From Clostridiales bacterium (GTDB lineage: Bacteria; Bacillota; Clostridia; Christensenellales; UBA1242), in the NCBI GenBank assembly GCA_015055665.1, contig SVHX01000006.1, forward strand, positions 1 to 64,000: a stretch of DNA of 64,000 bases, given 5' to 3'. Within the stretch, counting starts at the first letter, position 1; every line of letters starts with the position of its first letter. The notes below the pieces were generated by a model. It was given only the letters and a program-made list of their open reading frames with translations. It searched no databases and was not told the DNA's origin. Made by a program: the position numbers and the translations under genes. Shown piece by piece: positions 361 to 61,466 of the stretch.

Positions 361-594
361 TTAGAACGGACAACCTCGCCATAAAAATTTATATTCTATA
401 TATGTTTTGATAGGTAATATATACCAAGTAGGTTCTTTTATTAATTTGTGTGTTTTTCTATCTAATTGCTCATGGTTTTCATAATATTGAACTTCCCATT
501 TTGCTAATCTTAAACTATTGGTAATTAAGTGTATTTTTAATTTTGTTTTGCCATATTCTCGATAGCAGATTTTATATCCATATTTGTTTTTCAT
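361..594 (-). CDS. small ICE-associated conserved protein
   Basis: 77 aa ORF ending LWRGCPF, next to the PcfK-like gene; resembles small proteins recalled from clostridial conjugative elements. Confidence 0.6.
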   Translation of the reverse strand: MKNKYGYKICYREYGKTKLKIHLITNSLRLAKWEVQYYENHEQLDRKTHKLIKEPTWYILPIKTYIEYKFLWRGCPF

Positions 595-605
595 ATAGTA
601 CCTTC

Positions 606-806
606 TTAATCTGTTTTATCTATTGAAATTCCGAAGCTTTCAATTTTAAATTGCAATTGTGGATATTTGTTTTTTAAATCTTCTATGATAGGTGAGTAAT
701 CTTTAAAGTTTATTTTTGAAAATCCTGTAGCTATATCATTTTCTATAAATCTATCTATATCTATATAAATTTGTTTAATATCATTTTCTTCTAATTCTAA
801 TAACAT
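606..806 (-). CDS. hypothetical protein
   Basis: Co-directional 66 aa ORF in the compact minus-strand cluster. Confidence 0.5.
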   Translation of the reverse strand: MLLELEENDIKQIYIDIDRFIENDIATGFSKINFKDYSPIIEDLKNKYPQLQFKIESFGISIDKTD

Positions 807-818
807 TATTTCACCTCA

Positions 819-1145
819 TTATTCTATTTTCATTATTCTTAAATCTATAAAAGAGTGGTAATTATAATTGAATTTATCAGTTATATTCCACCAAAGTTCA
901 TGTTCTTGATTATCTTTTAAATCTTCAATATTAGTATCTAGTTCATACCAATTTATTAATTTGTCTTCATCATCAAAAGCATTTGCAACCCAACTCATGT
1001 TTGGATTTTTTTCTTGTTCTATAATTTGTTTAAATCTATTAACTGCTTTTTGATAAGTGTCATATAAATTAATATCTATTCCATTGCAATCGTTTGTAGA
1101 ATAGTCAAAAAGCACTAAATAAACTATTTTTTTATTATTATCCAA
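819..1145 (-). CDS. hypothetical protein
   Basis: Co-directional 108 aa ORF in the compact minus-strand cluster. Confidence 0.5.
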   Translation of the reverse strand: MDNNKKIVYLVLFDYSTNDCNGIDINLYDTYQKAVNRFKQIIEQEKNPNMSWVANAFDDEDKLINWYELDTNIEDLKDNQEHELWWNITDKFNYNYHSFIDLRIMKIE

Positions 1146-1554
1146 TTCTTCTTAAACCTCCGTATAATGTGTTAATTACAATTGTTCCAAATTCGCTACA
1201 ATCGTTATCTGTTTTATTCCATACATAAGCATACGCATATTTTGTTGTGTTATCTCCAATAAGAAGTTCGTCCCAATCTTCTTTATAGCTGGTAACAATT
1301 AAAAAATTGTACAGTTCGCCAAACTCTGCAAAATCATGAGTTACTGCATAAACTGTACAATTATATTTTTCTTCTATTTTATTTATTTTTTCTAACAATT
1401 CTTCATCTTGAAATGCCCAAAATCCTGCATATCTTTCAAAGTAACATACATTGTTTTCTTCTATAAATCCTTCAATATAAGGTTTATATATGTTTAATTT
1501 TTTCATAAGTTTAACTGCATATTCTTTTCTTTGTTCTTTTGTTGCTTGTTTCAT
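1138..1554 (-). CDS. ICE-type hypothetical protein
   Basis: Start placed at MKQATKEQRKEY (internal Met); co-directional with its neighbours. Confidence 0.55.
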   Translation of the reverse strand: MKQATKEQRKEYAVKLMKKLNIYKPYIEGFIEENNVCYFERYAGFWAFQDEELLEKINKIEEKYNCTVYAVTHDFAEFGELYNFLIVTSYKEDWDELLIGDNTTKYAYAYVWNKTDNDCSEFGTIVINTLYGGLRRIG

Positions 1555-1564
1555 TTTACACCTC

Positions 1565-1984
1565 TTAATCTTTGTATTCATCTAATGCTTTTTTTAATCC
1601 CATAACTAGATTTTGATGTTTGTTAATTTCATCTAGTGTTAGTCCTAATGCATCAAGTGTTGGTTCTATATCATATGTAACACAATATTCATGATTAGAT
1701 AATTCATATCTAAACATTTCGTATATAAAACCTGTTCCGTCTTTATCATTTTTAATTTCATTTTCAATTTCTTCTCTATGTCTTTTGAACATATTGTGCA
1801 TTGCTTCTGAGTCTGTTTTTCTAATATATCCACCAGCACCGATAGAATATATTTTGTCTGTGTCTTTTTCTTTAAGACCAAACTTTTTCATCATGTCTTT
1901 AAATTGTTCATTACTAAATGCAAATCCAAAAGGGAAATCATTTATTTCTTTTTGTTGTTTTTCTTTTAATTTTAAATATTTCAT
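1565..1984 (-). CDS. DUF7659-like ICE protein
   Basis: FPFGFAFSNEQF...GFIYEMFRYELSNHEYCVTYDIEPTLDALGLT resembles a family recalled from clostridial ICEs. Confidence 0.55.
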   Translation of the reverse strand: MKYLKLKEKQQKEINDFPFGFAFSNEQFKDMMKKFGLKEKDTDKIYSIGAGGYIRKTDSEAMHNMFKRHREEIENEIKNDKDGTGFIYEMFRYELSNHEYCVTYDIEPTLDALGLTLDEINKHQNLVMGLKKALDEYKD

Positions 1985-1994
1985 TTTTTACTCC

Positions 1995-2252
1995 TTAATC
2001 TAAATTTTCAAAATCTTCTATATAAATTTTGTTAAACTCTGGACCGTATTCAAAGTATAAATTGTTTTCTTTGTCTAAATATAAATCGTATTCTTGTACT
2101 GAAAACTTACCAGCTTTATTAAGTGAACATATTACATAGTTTTCTTTTATTTCTAAAATGTTAAATATGCAATGATATTCACCATCGAAAAAATCATATT
2201 CATTCATGTAATATTCTTTATATTGATTGATTTTTTCTATTGAATTTTTCAT
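1995..2252 (-). CDS. hypothetical protein
   Basis: 85 aa ORF with AAAGGAGG ribosome-binding site just upstream (reverse strand). Confidence 0.55.
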   Translation of the reverse strand: MKNSIEKINQYKEYYMNEYDFFDGEYHCIFNILEIKENYVICSLNKAGKFSVQEYDLYLDKENNLYFEYGPEFNKIYIEDFENLD

Positions 2253-3571: not shown

Positions 3572-4531
3572 TTATGGGGTTAATGTGTCAGTGAGGTGAG
3601 GATATAAAATTTCTCTGTTGGTAGAAACGATTGATAGCATTTGATTGTATCTAGAGATGAGTTTGTTAATTATATCGTTTTTATGTGCTAATATTTGTTG
3701 GTGTTCGTGAGCGAAGTCGTTGTTTGTTTTGAAATACTCGTTACTAATTAGGGTGTAGTCATCAAAAATCTTTTTGCTTATATCGTCAACATTAATATCT
3801 TCTGGTATAATGTTGCTATTAACAATTGCACGGGCAAAATCCTTGTCGTGTGCGAAGTAAAGTTTTCTAATATTGTCCATAGTTACCATAGCATAATGTC
3901 TTGCATCATGTTCAATTGGAAATGTAGCGTTATCTCTTACATAATCTATGCATGTGTTGTTATTTCGTAGTGTTTTGTACATACGATCAAATATTACAAC
4001 GAAAAAATCTAAGCAGTTATCTTCTGTTAGGGATGTGTTGTTGTCATAAATTTGGGTGAGCAAATCACTTTGGAAGGTGTGTTTCGATTCATGTAATATG
4101 GTTTCAAGGATTTCGTATTTTATATTCTTGTAACTGCCCATTTGGTCAAAGCAATCTTGATAGCCTAGACTGATGTATTTCTTAATATATTCATACAAAC
4201 ATTGTTCGTATTTAGAGCTGTTGAAAGGGTTATAGTTCGCGTAAAAATCATATAGATTGCTAATGTGATTAGGATCAAAGCAATCTATTTTTAATTCCTT
4301 TAAGGTTTCGATTCGTAATGTGTTTATTTTAATGTGGTATTTATTAACAACCTTGCCCTGATTGCCAAATTTTTCATCTTCTTCGAAGCTAATTTCTAAT
4401 GGCAAATTGCAATTATGAATGTCGTAATTGACTTTGCAAATTTGCAATAGTTGTTTACGGATATCTTCATAAGACTGGTAAGAGTCGTATTGAGTTAAAT
4501 AGTTTTTGCATTGTAAATATAATTGTTCCAT
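3572..4531 (-). CDS. hypothetical protein
   Basis: 319 aa ORF; contains ETILHESKHTFQSDL (HE..H-like) but no family confidently recognised. Confidence 0.65.
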   Translation of the reverse strand: MEQLYLQCKNYLTQYDSYQSYEDIRKQLLQICKVNYDIHNCNLPLEISFEEDEKFGNQGKVVNKYHIKINTLRIETLKELKIDCFDPNHISNLYDFYANYNPFNSSKYEQCLYEYIKKYISLGYQDCFDQMGSYKNIKYEILETILHESKHTFQSDLLTQIYDNNTSLTEDNCLDFFVVIFDRMYKTLRNNNTCIDYVRDNATFPIEHDARHYAMVTMDNIRKLYFAHDKDFARAIVNSNIIPEDINVDDISKKIFDDYTLISNEYFKTNNDFAHEHQQILAHKNDIINKLISRYNQMLSIVSTNREILYPHLTDTLTP

Positions 4532-4691
4532 CTCTTCTCTCTAAATTAAATTTTACGCTGATAATATTATTTGTTTGGCTGTTTTTCTTGTAGTGTAGGC
4601 AGTAATTGATGATAAAATCTTTAATTTGCAACTAATTAATTATAGCACAGGTAGATTGTATTTCAAAATATATGTTTGTTGTGAGGATGTG

Positions 4692-4737
4692 TTTTTTCTC
4701 AAAGGGTATTGAAATTGGAAAAATAGTGTGATATAAT
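4692..4737 (+). promoter_or_regulatory. Extended promoter of the paralogue array
   Basis: TTTTTTCTCAAAGGGTATTGAAA-N10-AGTGTGATATAAT; -35 TTGAAA 4709-4714, 17 nt spacer, -10 TATAAT 4732-4737. Confidence 0.8.
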
Positions 4738-4887: not shown

Positions 4888-5568
4888 ATGAACGAAAAAG
4901 TAAAGCAAATGGTGGAAGAGTACAAGGAGTATAGTAAGAAAGCTTTGCAGACATCTATAAACATAAGTAAAAAGCAGGAAGAGTTCGATAAAGAAATGTA
5001 TAAGCTAGAGAAACAACTCAAACAAGAGCAGGGTCGTGTTGATTACTTGAAAAGACAGCTAATATACGTTGGATTGGAAGAAGTAGTAGAGGAACTTAAG
5101 CATCATCCTTTTGTGCAAAATTTAGGTAAAATGCAAGTAAGTTGTTGGTTAAGGATGAGCTATGGCTCAAAGAGCTCTGGTCAAATAGTTTTATTGGAAG
5201 AGCAGTTAGAAAAAATAAAAAAATATTTGTTGGCTGAGGACTTTGATTTTGATTTAACAATTAGTTTTTCAGACACAAATAAAACTGTTAAAGTGGGCTT
5301 ATTTTCGTTTGCTCACACGATTCAAAAAGACGGTAAATCACTTGTTGAGCATGTTAAAATTCAGCCATTTGAGAATAGAAAAGAATATGGCTGGTATTGC
5401 ATTGATGATTATAGCCAAATAATCGTTCAACATCACCTAGGAGAGATATTTGGGGATAATACAAAAAGGGTTCCTAAAGTTTGGAGAGATTGTGTTCGAG
5501 CAGTACTAGAAAAAGAAAATACTAATAGTGATGAGCTTGATGCTACAAACACTGTTATGGGTGAGTAA
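4888..5568 (+). CDS. VMGD-family paralogue 1, unknown function
   Basis: Coiled-coil N-terminus, TIQKDGKSLVEHVKI, CIDDYSQ, C-terminus NTVMGE. Confidence 0.85.
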   Translation: MNEKVKQMVEEYKEYSKKALQTSINISKKQEEFDKEMYKLEKQLKQEQGRVDYLKRQLIYVGLEEVVEELKHHPFVQNLGKMQVSCWLRMSYGSKSSGQIVLLEEQLEKIKKYLLAEDFDFDLTISFSDTNKTVKVGLFSFAHTIQKDGKSLVEHVKIQPFENRKEYGWYCIDDYSQIIVQHHLGEIFGDNTKRVPKVWRDCVRAVLEKENTNSDELDATNTVMGE

Positions 5569-5590
5569 TATTTATTAGGGGTAAAAGATT

Positions 5591-6280
5591 ATGGATATTA
5601 GACGTGAAATTGCTGGATTGTATAGACGCGAGCAAGAAAATAGAGATATACATAAGTATCTTGCTGAGGCGAGGACTGAAGATGAACTCCGCAAGGCAAA
5701 AGATCATGCAGATTGGAACAAAATGGTCATTGCAATGGTAGGTGGTAGGCAGTGTCTATATACATTGGGGGAGATTCTTGATGAGATTGCTAACATTGTT
5801 GGTACAGATAGAGGAAATATAAGAGCGAGTATAACTATCGAGCCAAGTGGAGATAAGAGAAGGTCTTCTCGAGAATTGAATATTGATCTTGATTTGGTGA
5901 AAATTCTCGAAAAAATCAATGGGGATTATCCTCTGGGGGATATGGTAATAAGTCTATACTTAAATGGCAAAGAGTGGTTTAAGTTCGTACGACCATGTAG
6001 GCTAGGAGATGTCCAAAAAGATGGATCTTCCTTGGCAGATCATATTCGTGTTGAAGATAGCAAGAAAAAGTCTTACTATGGAGAGCCAATGGGCAAATAT
6101 GTGATTGATGATTGTAATAATGTAGTGATGAGCTATACAATACAAGAACTTGCACACGAAGAGCGTGCTAATAACTATGTTCCTGGCTATATTAAGCAAG
6201 CAATACTAAATATTAACGATAGGGAGTGTGGAAAGGTGGTAGATACTGCCGATTCTGCAAAAGAAATGGGAGATAATTAA
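5591..6280 (+). CDS. VMGD-family paralogue 2, unknown function
   Basis: LGEILDEIANIVG, VQKDGSSLADHIRV, VIDDCNN, C-terminus KEMGDN. Confidence 0.85.
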   Translation: MDIRREIAGLYRREQENRDIHKYLAEARTEDELRKAKDHADWNKMVIAMVGGRQCLYTLGEILDEIANIVGTDRGNIRASITIEPSGDKRRSSRELNIDLDLVKILEKINGDYPLGDMVISLYLNGKEWFKFVRPCRLGDVQKDGSSLADHIRVEDSKKKSYYGEPMGKYVIDDCNNVVMSYTIQELAHEERANNYVPGYIKQAILNINDRECGKVVDTADSAKEMGDN

Positions 6281-6301
6281 AATTTTTGGTGGAGGAAATT
6301 T

Positions 6302-6967
6302 ATGAAGAACTTTAAAGAATTTAAGCAAACTTATGCGGATAAGAAAAAAGCGGTGCAAGATGCTAATATTTTCTTGAGTCTAAAGGAACAGGAGTATCTT
6401 AGGGAAATTAGAGATGCAAAAGAGTTGGTTGATGCTTATGGCAAAGATCTCAAAAATATGGAGAATACCGTTTTTGAGGTAAAACTCGCAGATGTTATTG
6501 ATGAGATTGCTAAATTATGGAGAGAACAACCACCTGCTGTTACTGCTAAGATGTCTAGGGTGTTTGATACTCAAACATACGCTAGAATAACATTGGGGAA
6601 TGCACTAAGTGGTATTTGTAATTATAAGGATAAAATTATTGTTGATATTAAAGGCAAAGATTACAAGCACAAGATGCGAATTGAACAGCCTTTTAATCCA
6701 ACTGAGATTCAAGAGGATGGTCGTCCATTGTATCTGCATATGGAACTTAAAAAGGAAGAGATATTGAAACGTGCAGACGGAGATTGGGTGCCGACTTATC
6801 GTTATGTAATTGATGATTATAGTGTAATGACACTTAAATACAAGTACCATGCGTTATTGAACAATGATTTCGCCGGGATAGCCCCTATTCTTAAAGAGGC
6901 GATAATAAATGTTGTTGATAGAGAATATGGAAATTCCGAGTCGGAAGACGTAATGGGTGATGAATAA
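6302..6967 (+). CDS. VMGD-family paralogue 3, unknown function
   Basis: LADVIDEIAK, IQEDGRPLYLHM, VIDDYSVM, C-terminus EDVMGDE; RBS GGTGGAGG. Confidence 0.85.
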   Translation: MKNFKEFKQTYADKKKAVQDANIFLSLKEQEYLREIRDAKELVDAYGKDLKNMENTVFEVKLADVIDEIAKLWREQPPAVTAKMSRVFDTQTYARITLGNALSGICNYKDKIIVDIKGKDYKHKMRIEQPFNPTEIQEDGRPLYLHMELKKEEILKRADGDWVPTYRYVIDDYSVMTLKYKYHALLNNDFAGIAPILKEAIINVVDREYGNSESEDVMGDE

Positions 6968-6997
6968 GGATAAATTATTTTGGTGGAGAATAAAGTT

Positions 6998-7651
6998 ATG
7001 AGTAGTGTTGATTATAAAAGCTGGGCAGCTAAAATAGATAAACTTCAAGAACAAAACCGCGAAGCTGAGGAATTTATAAACGTCGAAAAACAAAAGTACT
7101 TAGAGTCTATAAAAAAGGCAAGTGATTTAATAGATTCTAATAGCAGAATAATAAGAGCTTTTGGTAATACAAAAATTCATGCTAATTTGGAAGATGTTAT
7201 AGATGAAATTGCAAAAAGATTACAGATAGCCAAAGATGATTTGAAGGTGAATCTAGATGTTCAAAGAGGCATGCGTAGCCTTGTTGGAGGTTATGAAGAT
7301 GTGCAAAGAGAACTTGATGCAATAAAAAGAGGCGATCTTTTTGGAATTATCAAAGTGTATATTTTTTCAGGAAAGCATTCTAAATTAATATTCGAATTGC
7401 CATTAAACTTTTATGATAGACAAAAAGATGGCCAAGGCTTAGATAAGCATATTGTTTTTGTTCCGACAGATCAATATCGATATAAAGTAGAGATAGACGA
7501 TTATCGTAATCTGACTATAGGATGTAGTGTCAAAGAACTTATGTCTTCTAGCCAAGGCGAGCGATATCCTTACATAGTTAAAGAAGCGTTTAAGGCTGTT
7601 AATGCAAGGGAATGTGAAGCCGAGTCGGAAGACGTAATGGGAGATAATTAA
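6998..7651 (+). CDS. VMGD-family paralogue 4, unknown function
   Basis: Start at MSSVDYKSW after GGTGGAGA; LEDVIDEIAK, RQKDGQGLDKHI, EIDDYRNLTI, C-terminus EDVMGDN. Confidence 0.85.
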   Translation: MSSVDYKSWAAKIDKLQEQNREAEEFINVEKQKYLESIKKASDLIDSNSRIIRAFGNTKIHANLEDVIDEIAKRLQIAKDDLKVNLDVQRGMRSLVGGYEDVQRELDAIKRGDLFGIIKVYIFSGKHSKLIFELPLNFYDRQKDGQGLDKHIVFVPTDQYRYKVEIDDYRNLTIGCSVKELMSSSQGERYPYIVKEAFKAVNARECEAESEDVMGDN

Positions 7652-7673
7652 AATACAAAAGGTGGAAAGTATT

Positions 7674-8348
7674 ATGGCACAAAGTTGGAAGGCGTTAAAA
7701 GGTGAATATGATGCAAGGTTAGAGTCGATAGGTAAGGCGAAGGTGTTCCTTGCGGAAAAGGAAAAACAATATGAAGCAGAAACTAAGCCAGCTAAAGACT
7801 TTATTAAAAGAGAAAATGTTGAGTTGAGTATATTGCGAAATCAAGAAATATCTATTAATGTAGCGGAAGTTATTGATGAACTTGCTAAGGTTGTAGGGGC
7901 TAGGGATAATGTGATTTTCGTAAAGACCGCAATAGCTGGTTCGCGTAGTTATTCTGGTACACGTGAGAACTTGCAAAATCAATTGTATGTTGACATGAAA
8001 AAGCGTGGGGCAAAAGGAGAGGTAATGTTAACTATCTCTGGTAAGGATAACGAATATTTTACTATTGAGTTTCCGATTGAGTTTTATGCTGTACAGAGGG
8101 ATGGCAGGCTTATGGGAGAGTGTATTGATATTGTTCCTAATAAGTTGATTAATTACAATCGTCCTTGGATGTTTGAGATGAATTGTGGTTTCGGAAATCT
8201 AGTTGTTAAGCATAAAATGTGTGAGTTACTAGGTAGTGGGTATCAAGGATATTGCAAGTATTATCCAGAGGCTTGGCGACAGGCGGTTGTAAATGTATTA
8301 GAAAGACAACACGAAAGCGCTCAAGAATCTGTTATGGGAGATGAGTAA
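7674..8348 (+). CDS. VMGD-family paralogue 5, unknown function
   Basis: Start at MAQSWKALK; VAEVIDELAKVVG, VQRDGRLMGECI, C-terminus ESVMGDE. Confidence 0.85.
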   Translation: MAQSWKALKGEYDARLESIGKAKVFLAEKEKQYEAETKPAKDFIKRENVELSILRNQEISINVAEVIDELAKVVGARDNVIFVKTAIAGSRSYSGTRENLQNQLYVDMKKRGAKGEVMLTISGKDNEYFTIEFPIEFYAVQRDGRLMGECIDIVPNKLINYNRPWMFEMNCGFGNLVVKHKMCELLGSGYQGYCKYYPEAWRQAVVNVLERQHESAQESVMGDE

Positions 8349-8852
8349 ATGCAAGAGGCTTGTGAGGTATTAGTAAGTGTTTCTGATGTTGTTGCTGAAA
8401 TAGCTAAAGAGATGAATTGTAATAAGTTAAATGTTAGTGTTAGAGTAGTTGGACCAGATTGCCTAGAGTCTGGAGAAAAACGACATCTTAAGGCTGGTCT
8501 AGAGTATATGTCTAAATCTGGTAAAATGGGAGAGATTATTCTAACCATATTAGATGGTGAAAGGTGTGTGTGCCCCAATATTAGATTGCCATTTAATTAT
8601 AATTTAATTCAGAAAGATGGAAGATGTCTAGGAGAGTGTGTTGACATAAAACCCATACCTGCTATTTGTGAACATATATCAGAAATAAAGCCAAAAGAGT
8701 GGCGATACTCGATAGCTTGTGAAAATCTAGTTGTTACTCAAAAAATAGAAGAATTGTTAGGTAATTATTACCCAAAAGTTTGGAGTAGGGCTGTTCGTGC
8801 AGTATTAAGGAATCAAAATAAAAACACTCAAGAAAGTATAATAGGTAGGTGA
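8349..8852 (+). CDS. VMGD-family paralogue 6, lacking the coiled-coil N-terminus
   Basis: Starts directly at the DVVAEIAKEM motif; IQKDGRCLGECVDI; C-terminus ESIIGR. ATG abuts the upstream stop. Confidence 0.8.
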   Translation: MQEACEVLVSVSDVVAEIAKEMNCNKLNVSVRVVGPDCLESGEKRHLKAGLEYMSKSGKMGEIILTILDGERCVCPNIRLPFNYNLIQKDGRCLGECVDIKPIPAICEHISEIKPKEWRYSIACENLVVTQKIEELLGNYYPKVWSRAVRAVLRNQNKNTQESIIGR

Positions 8853-8857
8853 AGTAA

Positions 8858-9523
8858 ATGAGTGATAATTGGAAATCTGTAAAAGCTGAATATGATGCAA
8901 GACAAAGTAGAATATTAGAAGCTAAAGATGCCATAAAGAGTAGATATGAGATTTTTCTAGAAGAAACAAAAAAATATAATGAAGTAGTTGAAAATGAAAA
9001 AAAGGAATTAGACTCTCTAGGAAACGAGGTTGTTAGAGTAAATGTTGCTGAAGTAATACAAGAATTGGCTAATATTTGTGGCATAGAGAAGAAAGAATTA
9101 AAAGTGAAATTTTTAATAAGTGGATATAACCCAAACTTTGGTATTTACCATAATACACTTAAAGATTGTACCGCGGGAATGCAACAAATAAAGCGTGGTG
9201 GTGATTGTGGTTTTGTGTCGGTATATGTGCGTTGGGGAGAACGCACTTTATGCACTTCATCTTTCCCATTGAATGGAAATGATATTCAAAGCAATGGAAA
9301 AGAACTTAAGAAGAACGTAGTGATAAAAGAAGAGGACGATTCAACATATTCAATAGCTTTCAAAAATGAATCAATTGTTATTGCCAAACATGAGTTTGGT
9401 GCGATAATGGGGATAAGTGATCGTTTTAAGTGTTGCGTTTCGCGATCATGGTTTGATGCAGTACTCGGGGTGCTAGAGAAACAGAGTGAACACGCACAAG
9501 AAAATGTCATGGGAGATGAGTAA
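8858..9523 (+). CDS. VMGD-family paralogue 7, unknown function
   Basis: VAEVIQELANICG, IQSNGKELKKNVVI, C-terminus ENVMGDE. Confidence 0.85.
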   Translation: MSDNWKSVKAEYDARQSRILEAKDAIKSRYEIFLEETKKYNEVVENEKKELDSLGNEVVRVNVAEVIQELANICGIEKKELKVKFLISGYNPNFGIYHNTLKDCTAGMQQIKRGGDCGFVSVYVRWGERTLCTSSFPLNGNDIQSNGKELKKNVVIKEEDDSTYSIAFKNESIVIAKHEFGAIMGISDRFKCCVSRSWFDAVLGVLEKQSEHAQENVMGDE

Positions 9524-9534
9524 GGGAGAGAATT

Positions 9535-10173
9535 GTGGTTGAATTGAGTTTTAAAAGTATTGTGGAAGAGATAAATAATGCTGAAAAGCGCAAGCTGGAG
9601 GCATCAAAGTACATAATGGAGCAAGAGAGGGCTTATAAAGAAAGAACTGCAGAAGCTAGAAATGTGATTGCGAGTTCGTCTTCTCGTATTATGGATTTGA
9701 AATGTAAGATGTATAAATTTCATCTTGTAGACATTATTAAAGAGATGGAGAAGTTAAAAGGCGAAGATCTTAGTATTAGATGCGATATCGTTTTTGACGA
9801 GCCTCAGTATGGCACACAGAAGGATCTTTGTAATAAATTAACCGAGATGTATTGTGATGATGATCTAGTTAATATAGTTGTAGATATGTATGGATCTAAG
9901 GGGTGTGTAGGAGGGATGGAATTTGCTATGCCGCTAGACACAATTCAGAGAGATGGTAGCGAATTTGTAGAGCATATTAAGGTTAGGCGTGCGGGATGTG
10001 GTAAGGTATTTACATATCTTATTGAAGACTGGAGCCAGTTGACTATACCATTTACTGTATCTGAACTTACTAGTTCTAATATAGAGACTCCGATCCAAGA
10101 TGCAGACTTAAGACCAGCACTCTACAACTTAATGGATAGAGAAGCTTATTATGAAAATGATGATGTAATGTAG
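9535..10173 (+). CDS. VMGD-family paralogue 8, unknown function
   Basis: LVDIIKEMEKLKG, IQRDGSEFVEHIKV, LIEDWSQLTI, C-terminus NDDVM (truncated tag). Confidence 0.82.
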   Translation: MVELSFKSIVEEINNAEKRKLEASKYIMEQERAYKERTAEARNVIASSSSRIMDLKCKMYKFHLVDIIKEMEKLKGEDLSIRCDIVFDEPQYGTQKDLCNKLTEMYCDDDLVNIVVDMYGSKGCVGGMEFAMPLDTIQRDGSEFVEHIKVRRAGCGKVFTYLIEDWSQLTIPFTVSELTSSNIETPIQDADLRPALYNLMDREAYYENDDVM

Positions 10174-10186
10174 GTCGTTGAGATAC

Positions 10187-10258
10187 AAAAAGAAGAGTAA
10201 AATATCTTGAGGTAATTCCTATAAGGATGCTCGAAATAATATTACTCTTCTTTTTTTT
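10187..10258. terminator. Compound bidirectional terminator
   Basis: AAAAAGAAGAGTAA ... TTACTCTTCTTTTTTTT outer stem between convergent genes, small inner hairpin. Confidence 0.75.
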
Positions 10259-60785: not shown

Positions 60786-61466
60786 ATGGGTAAAAATATT
60801 TTTGAATTAATTGATGAGCAGGTAGCAACTACCAAGAGTATTGACGAGGCTATCGCTGATGAAAAGAAAAACTACGAAGAAGTAATGAGTGTTCTTCTAG
60901 GTGCAAGAAGAGAAAGTAATGACTTGGCTAAAACTTACATGAGAACTGCTGTAAGAGCAAATATTGGCGATATAGCTGATAATCTTGCTGCTATTTGGGG
61001 TTGTAGCCCTGATGATATCCAAATTACTAGTCACACAGATTTTGCTAAGACTACTGGTGTGGATTACACATCAAGAGATTTTGGTTTAAGAATTGATCAA
61101 AAGGATAACGGATTACGTGCTATATACGTGGAATTTACACAAAGAAATAAAAATGGTGAAGTTGTAAATTCTGAAGAGCTTATGATGCGTTATAATGGTT
61201 ACCTTGGACAAAGTAAAGGTAGGATACTAAAAGATTGTGTAACATATGGAAGAACTCAAATAAATGAAAATACATACGTATGGGATATGCGTCTAGTTAG
61301 ACCTAGACATGTAGATATGGAATTCCCTGCAGGTATAGTATACAATCTTTCTAAAAACAATGGACTCAAAAAAGATTCTCATATTGCAGTAAGAGATGCT
61401 GTAATTAAGTATGCAAACGAGCATGAATATGTTAGTCTAGAGCTAGAGCTAGCTGATGAGGAGTAA
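60786..61466 (+). CDS. Distant homologue of the VMGD-family array proteins
   Basis: Coiled-coil N-terminus, VRANIGDIADNLAAIWGCSPDDIQI (compare IHANLEDVIDEIAKRLQIAKDDLKV), GRILKDCVTY (compare GRLMGECIDI). Confidence 0.75.
   Translation: MGKNIFELIDEQVATTKSIDEAIADEKKNYEEVMSVLLGARRESNDLAKTYMRTAVRANIGDIADNLAAIWGCSPDDIQITSHTDFAKTTGVDYTSRDFGLRIDQKDNGLRAIYVEFTQRNKNGEVVNSEELMMRYNGYLGQSKGRILKDCVTYGRTQINENTYVWDMRLVRPRHVDMEFPAGIVYNLSKNNGLKKDSHIAVRDAVIKYANEHEYVSLELELADEE

Follow-up and report, generated by a model that had tools for sequence, protein, structure and literature searches.

Why does the genome of a gut Clostridia bacterium carry eight diverged versions of an unrecognised gene in a row, and what might their products do? 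Within the window (the whole 64,000-nucleotide stretch of DNA that was analysed), positions 4888-10173 hold eight consecutive open reading frames on the plus strand, each coding for 167-229 aa and separated, in order from W1 to W8, by spacers of 22, 21, 30, 22, 0, 5 and 11 nt. An initial annotation had described them as eight same-strand genes with short gaps that form one family, and the list of open reading frames and leave-one-out profiles bear this out. Eight was, however, not the full number of members in the window: a ninth copy at 60786-61466 had been missed. The members are the following:

4888-5568, plus strand: copy W1, 226 aa
5591-6280, plus strand: copy W2, 229 aa
6302-6967, plus strand: copy W3, 221 aa
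6998-7651, plus strand: copy W4, 217 aa
7674-8348, plus strand: copy W5, 224 aa, the most central copy
8349-8852, plus strand: copy W6, 167 aa, domain only, without the N-terminal helix
8858-9523, plus strand: copy W7, 221 aa
9535-10173, plus strand: copy W8, 212 aa
60786-61466, plus strand: copy W9, the dispersed ninth member, 226 aa, flanked by two orphan genes

Judged by the placement of Shine-Dalgarno-like sequences, W4 probably starts at ATG 6998, which is preceded by GGTGGAG, the longer form from TTG 6980 being unlikely, and ATG 7674 is the likely start of W5.

Pairwise identity among the array copies is 15-36%. Despite this the family is real, since a profile of any seven copies recovers the eighth (E 3e-20 to 9e-47). 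W9 was found by a search of the own genome, with E 1e-6 for the profile of the eight alone and 9e-12 for the wider family. The alignment has a constant order: a charged N-terminal helix, a helix resembling D-V-I-D-E-I-A-K, a beta-rich middle, a segment I-Q-K-D-G-x-x-L-x-E-H, two or three further strands and a C-terminal helix. The ordered motifs of the initial annotation thus hold as tendencies but not as strict motifs, for only E69, Q141 and G144 (numbering of copy 5) are invariant in the domain of the array copies. The proposed W-x-x-A/C-V helix is present in copies 1, 5, 6 and 7 but not in the remaining array copies. Conservation is evenly distributed along the chain (0.41-0.53 per segment), and no hypervariable face is visible in the sequence of the array copies. 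The N-terminal helix, described before as common to all, is retained in seven of the eight array copies and in most relatives but is missing from W6. Not all copies show a clear heptad-like moment (z 2.6-4.5 for W1, W3 and W4; -0.8 for W2 and 0.7 for W5), so oligomerisation through this helix remains putative. No export sign (signal peptide or transmembrane segment) is visible, which supports the earlier view that the proteins are probably cytosolic.

The claim that the family is an unrecognised one stood up to the library searches. Neither Pfam, NCBIfam, PHROGs, PADLOC nor the PDB sequences gave a credible match, and the same was true of Foldseek. The best library scores arise from the N-terminal helix and all lie below the curated cut-offs. 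An example is the ATP synthase b subunit, a coiled-coil stalk (PF00430), which matches the N-terminal helix of W8 weakly (E 0.0024). This match reflects helix composition only, and the C-terminal domain differs.

Structure models were made with AlphaFold2 from window sequences only, the same nine sequences serving for W5 and W4. The full-length model of W5 (pLDDT 83) shows an N-terminal helix some 50 residues long (5-55) followed by an alpha/beta domain; the domain model of W4 reached a pLDDT of 88 and a pTM of 0.81. The order of elements is alike in both domains: beta-alpha-beta-alpha-beta-beta-(short helix)-beta-beta-beta-alpha. A common fold of the copies is therefore supported for the two that were modelled. 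Foldseek found no significant match (E <= 0.001) for the W5 model in PDB and BFVD, and none for the W4 model in PDB. Matches to ERF/RAD52-like proteins were rejected (TM about 0.2, E above 0.1). The models predict a helix-armed alpha/beta architecture whose fold has no match among solved (PDB) or, for W5, viral (BFVD) structures.

The array is framed by signals that fit joint expression. The signals and the gene upstream of the array are:

3572-4531, minus strand: divergent neighbour, a 319-aa orphan with an HExxH motif (HESKH), no Pfam match, putative link to the array
4639-4666, minus strand: divergent promoter-like site TTGAAA-16-TATAAT facing the 3572-4531 gene, 11 of 12 consensus positions matched
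4709-4737, plus strand: promoter-like site TTGAAA-17-TATAAT with extended -10 (TG), 11 of 12 consensus positions matched
10187-10258, no strand assigned: terminator-like hairpin with U-tract after W8, z -4.1, on which a DegV gene converges

The site at 4709-4737, which precedes W1, is the best plus-strand promoter-like site of the region. We regard both sites as consensus matches only, since the region as a whole has no more such sites than shuffles do. Each array gene is preceded by a Shine-Dalgarno-like sequence. W5 to W8 are closely coupled (gaps of 0, 5 and 11 nt); the start codon of W6 abuts the stop codon of W5, and the last codons of W5, GGGAGATGAG, form the Shine-Dalgarno-like sequence for W6. 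One strong promoter-like site together with the terminator hairpin suggests that the array may be one transcript.

The 3572-4531 gene and the array are separated by a gap of 356 bp; the two strong promoter-like sites in it point away from each other at a distance of about 43 nt. This layout would suit copies that serve the HExxH protein as regulators or adaptors, linked to it through the shared intergenic region. We consider such a link very unlikely, because in the loci read nothing related to the HExxH protein was noticed next to other family members, and searches of plasmids and IMG/VR gave no homologue of it.

A tail VMGD(E/N) had been proposed as the common end of the proteins. It is found in copies 3, 4, 5 and 7, but copy 2 ends EMGDN and copies 1, 6 and 8 end VMGE, IIGR and VM. 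Codons for MGD(E/N/D)-stop also end two unrelated proteins of the own genome in frame (control 0). In both cases the next ATG lies 2-3 nt past the stop, so GGGGGAT is the ribosome-binding sequence of the next gene, and a species-specific C-terminal sorting peptide was rejected. Hence the acidic tail of the array copies need not be a peptide motif. In the related genome G574 the ending -ERDRG is shared by three adjacent genes from two families, since the Shine-Dalgarno-like repeat GAAAGAGATAGRGG is translated in frame in all three. As a peptide motif ERDRG was discarded too, a fourth instance in G574 following an in-frame stop in seemingly non-coding DNA. Of the three adjacent genes, at L063:4416-6432, two are neighbouring paralogues with 33% identity from another orphan family, and the third is the family member that follows directly downstream of them. 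A broader DDDFxF-like acidic tail, a post hoc find in small numbers only, was set aside.

Profile searches covered 311 genomes of the GTDB family to which the window belongs. Credible relatives are confined to this Clostridia family, where about nine of the 311 genomes have 1-4 copies each. Full-length relatives occur in the same genus (G053, G075) and in another genus (G549, G567, G574); those in G125, G133 and G606 are weaker but reproducible in leave-one-out searches. G574 has four members, two of them adjacent. G075 corresponds to the public record JAFTKS010000004 (Clostridia bacterium RGIG3907, roe deer cecum, same genus). In a class-wide survey of 392 genomes only coil matches and no credible relative appeared outside the family, and a scan of GTDB contigs returned nothing for W4 and only G075 itself for the query G075b. 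Since detection is limited by divergence, absence of relatives here means that they are not detectable. Copy number differs between species from 0 to 9, with one strain of the window's species included.

Several candidate members were rejected. Profile matches in G149, G059, G164, G974, G960, G846 and others concern only the N-terminal coil of larger proteins, and the orphan genes next to W9 and next to the G053 member are not hidden members (hhalign probability below 1%). A 224-aa protein of the own genome (about C18:68073-68747, minus strand; L029:10074-10748) has a similar outline with a helix, an LGDLI-like helix and a PDG loop. It was not accepted as a tenth member (HMM E 0.3-1, hhalign probability 14%).

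The distribution bears on the question whether the eight copies are subunits of one heteromer held together by their N-terminal helices, with W6 as the helix-less part. The co-directional, closely coupled genes would fit such a complex, as would a helix that is kept by all copies but one and by most relatives. However, relatives in the same and in the other genus have one to few copies, the ninth copy is unlinked and the heptad signal is uneven. The low copy number of the relatives and the unlinked W9 mean that the family does not require a fixed eight-part complex, and the one to few dispersed copies argue against an obligate one. A heteromer is therefore rather unlikely. The one or few copies per relative make it most likely that the unit is self-sufficient, with the array as a diversified set of such units.

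The contig begins with a cluster of small genes (361-2252, minus strand) that is phage- or element-like, which raises the possibility that the array is part of a prophage or another mobile element. Yet W5 had no match in phage or plasmid records and W5 and W7 had none in IMG/VR, these being single-copy queries that reach close relatives only. No copy matches PHROGs, and the genes around the relatives are core genes, rpsJ being the neighbour of two (the members in G125 and G549, of other genera). Furthermore, in GC content the array agrees with the chromosome around it (0.34-0.38), whereas the cluster has 0.25. Membership in a mobile element is thus very improbable. The cluster itself contains DUF7659 (E 3e-53) and a 147-aa gene (1138-1581) that matches the human gut phage MT835493 with 50% identity, and a similar cluster occurs in G125 (L068:645-2870). 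The cluster probably represents a piece of a phage or mobile element without connection to the array. No family member lies beside rpsJ in the own genome, so the positions of the family are not fixed.

In a tree of 19 family members the eight array copies lie on one side of one branch (91/94 support, 92% of bootstraps), whereas the other forks are mostly unresolved and the end branches long. As the eight copies form one clade, the array is a lineage-specific expansion. Together with the identity of 15-36% this agrees with the earlier proposal of duplication followed by deep divergence. The expansion can be old even within the genus, because the genus itself is deep: presumed orthologues in congeners have a median identity of about 42-49% in the small stretches read. 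The nearest congener, G149, has the DegV closest to the array's DegV neighbour (45% identical), and the array is missing beside it. Stepwise tandem duplication found no support in the relation of identity to gene distance (r -0.20, p 0.16). Judged from the sequences, the array is a single-gene unit that was multiplied and diversified in this lineage, while relatives have one, few or no detectable copies.

Such an expansion could also have added little or no function, under loose constraint, in a lineage that multiplies orphan genes. The own genome holds a second tandem array (C9:1253-6979, L075) of five adjacent same-strand HipA-like genes of 363-387 aa, of which four are evident paralogues and the fifth is remote; similarity to HipA_C is weak (E 3.5e-5) and stays under the cut-off. 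The lineage thus builds tandem arrays more than once, and there are other adjacent pairs of orphan paralogues in this genome. The even distribution of divergence along the protein points the same way. On the other hand, the reading frames of all eight copies are intact, no pseudogene copy was found, and the Shine-Dalgarno-like sequences and fold-defining positions survive at such low identity, which they would not do under free decay. We therefore regard an expansion with little function as rather improbable. In G075 a remote HipA-like relative (L017:3409-4536) lies about 3 kb from an array-family member. In contig C2 of the own genome a zeta-toxin-like P-loop protein (L061:5198-6925, minus strand; PF06414, E 6e-11) lies directly behind a 156-aa orphan gene, possibly as a toxin-antitoxin-like pair.

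Our leading guess, held tentatively and at less than even confidence, is that the array encodes self-sufficient binding proteins armed with a helix, which together form a repertoire with a logic like that of polyimmunity. It leads because the genes are arranged as in homogeneous polyimmunity loci, in which distant tandem paralogues lie on the same strand with small gaps and no interrupting toxin, as in SUKH, Imm6, Imm11, Imm33, Imm36 and Imm41 arrays (PMC3482391). The array shares all these features. Its two modelled copies have one alpha+beta fold, as have many immunity families; there is presumably one transcript and one main locus in the genome, and copy number differs between related genomes. 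In contrast to polyimmunity loci, the family is none of the known immunity families and has a long N-terminal helix. It matches no Pfam immunity model, and none of 13 members matches the anti-phage defence models of PADLOC. No recognised toxin lies beside members in the loci read (G053, G075, G125, G549, G567, G574), although orphan neighbours could be unrecognised toxins. WXG100 proteins, which a type VII secretion-linked system would have, were found in none of the 13 genus genomes, a control search being positive in Bacillus subtilis. The even conservation with no hypervariable face and the uneven heptad signal also speak against the guess. Given the negative results for recognised toxin neighbours, WXG100 and immunity models, we do not file the array as a polyimmunity locus, but it may work like one. 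It also resembles the families of the FESNov catalogue (PMC10849945) in having intact frames, no match in curated libraries and, so far, uncultivated relatives only, but differs from them in its patchy occurrence even among genomes of one bacterial family and in having grown into a tandem array.

The repertoire reading builds on the observed family, order of fold elements, operon-like layout and lineage-specific expansion, from which we infer co-transcription, oligomerisation, binding and diversity of partners. One operon would encode a self-sufficient cytosolic protein in eight diverged versions, its parts being an N-terminal helical arm, probably for oligomerisation, and a compact alpha/beta domain. 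The unit, in relatives one or few mostly dispersed genes, would here have been duplicated in tandem and have diverged with its fold kept. The domains may have diverged to recognise different partners, and the copies would be expressed together as a repertoire, in the manner assumed for homogeneous polyimmunity loci. The more specific proposal of an undescribed helix-armed alpha/beta family, possibly with a new fold, that serves a lineage of small-genome gut Clostridia as a diversified intracellular recognition repertoire (immunity- or defence-like) and comprises eight co-expressed specificities in this species appears quite unlikely.

One genome of 1.26 Mb spends about 6 kb on nine copies of a family that none of the curated libraries searched contains. 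Should these copies recognise different partners, uncultured gut bacteria would possess an intracellular repertoire system that is new. If there is no diversity of partners, the array shows by what route orphan genes are multiplied in a small genome.
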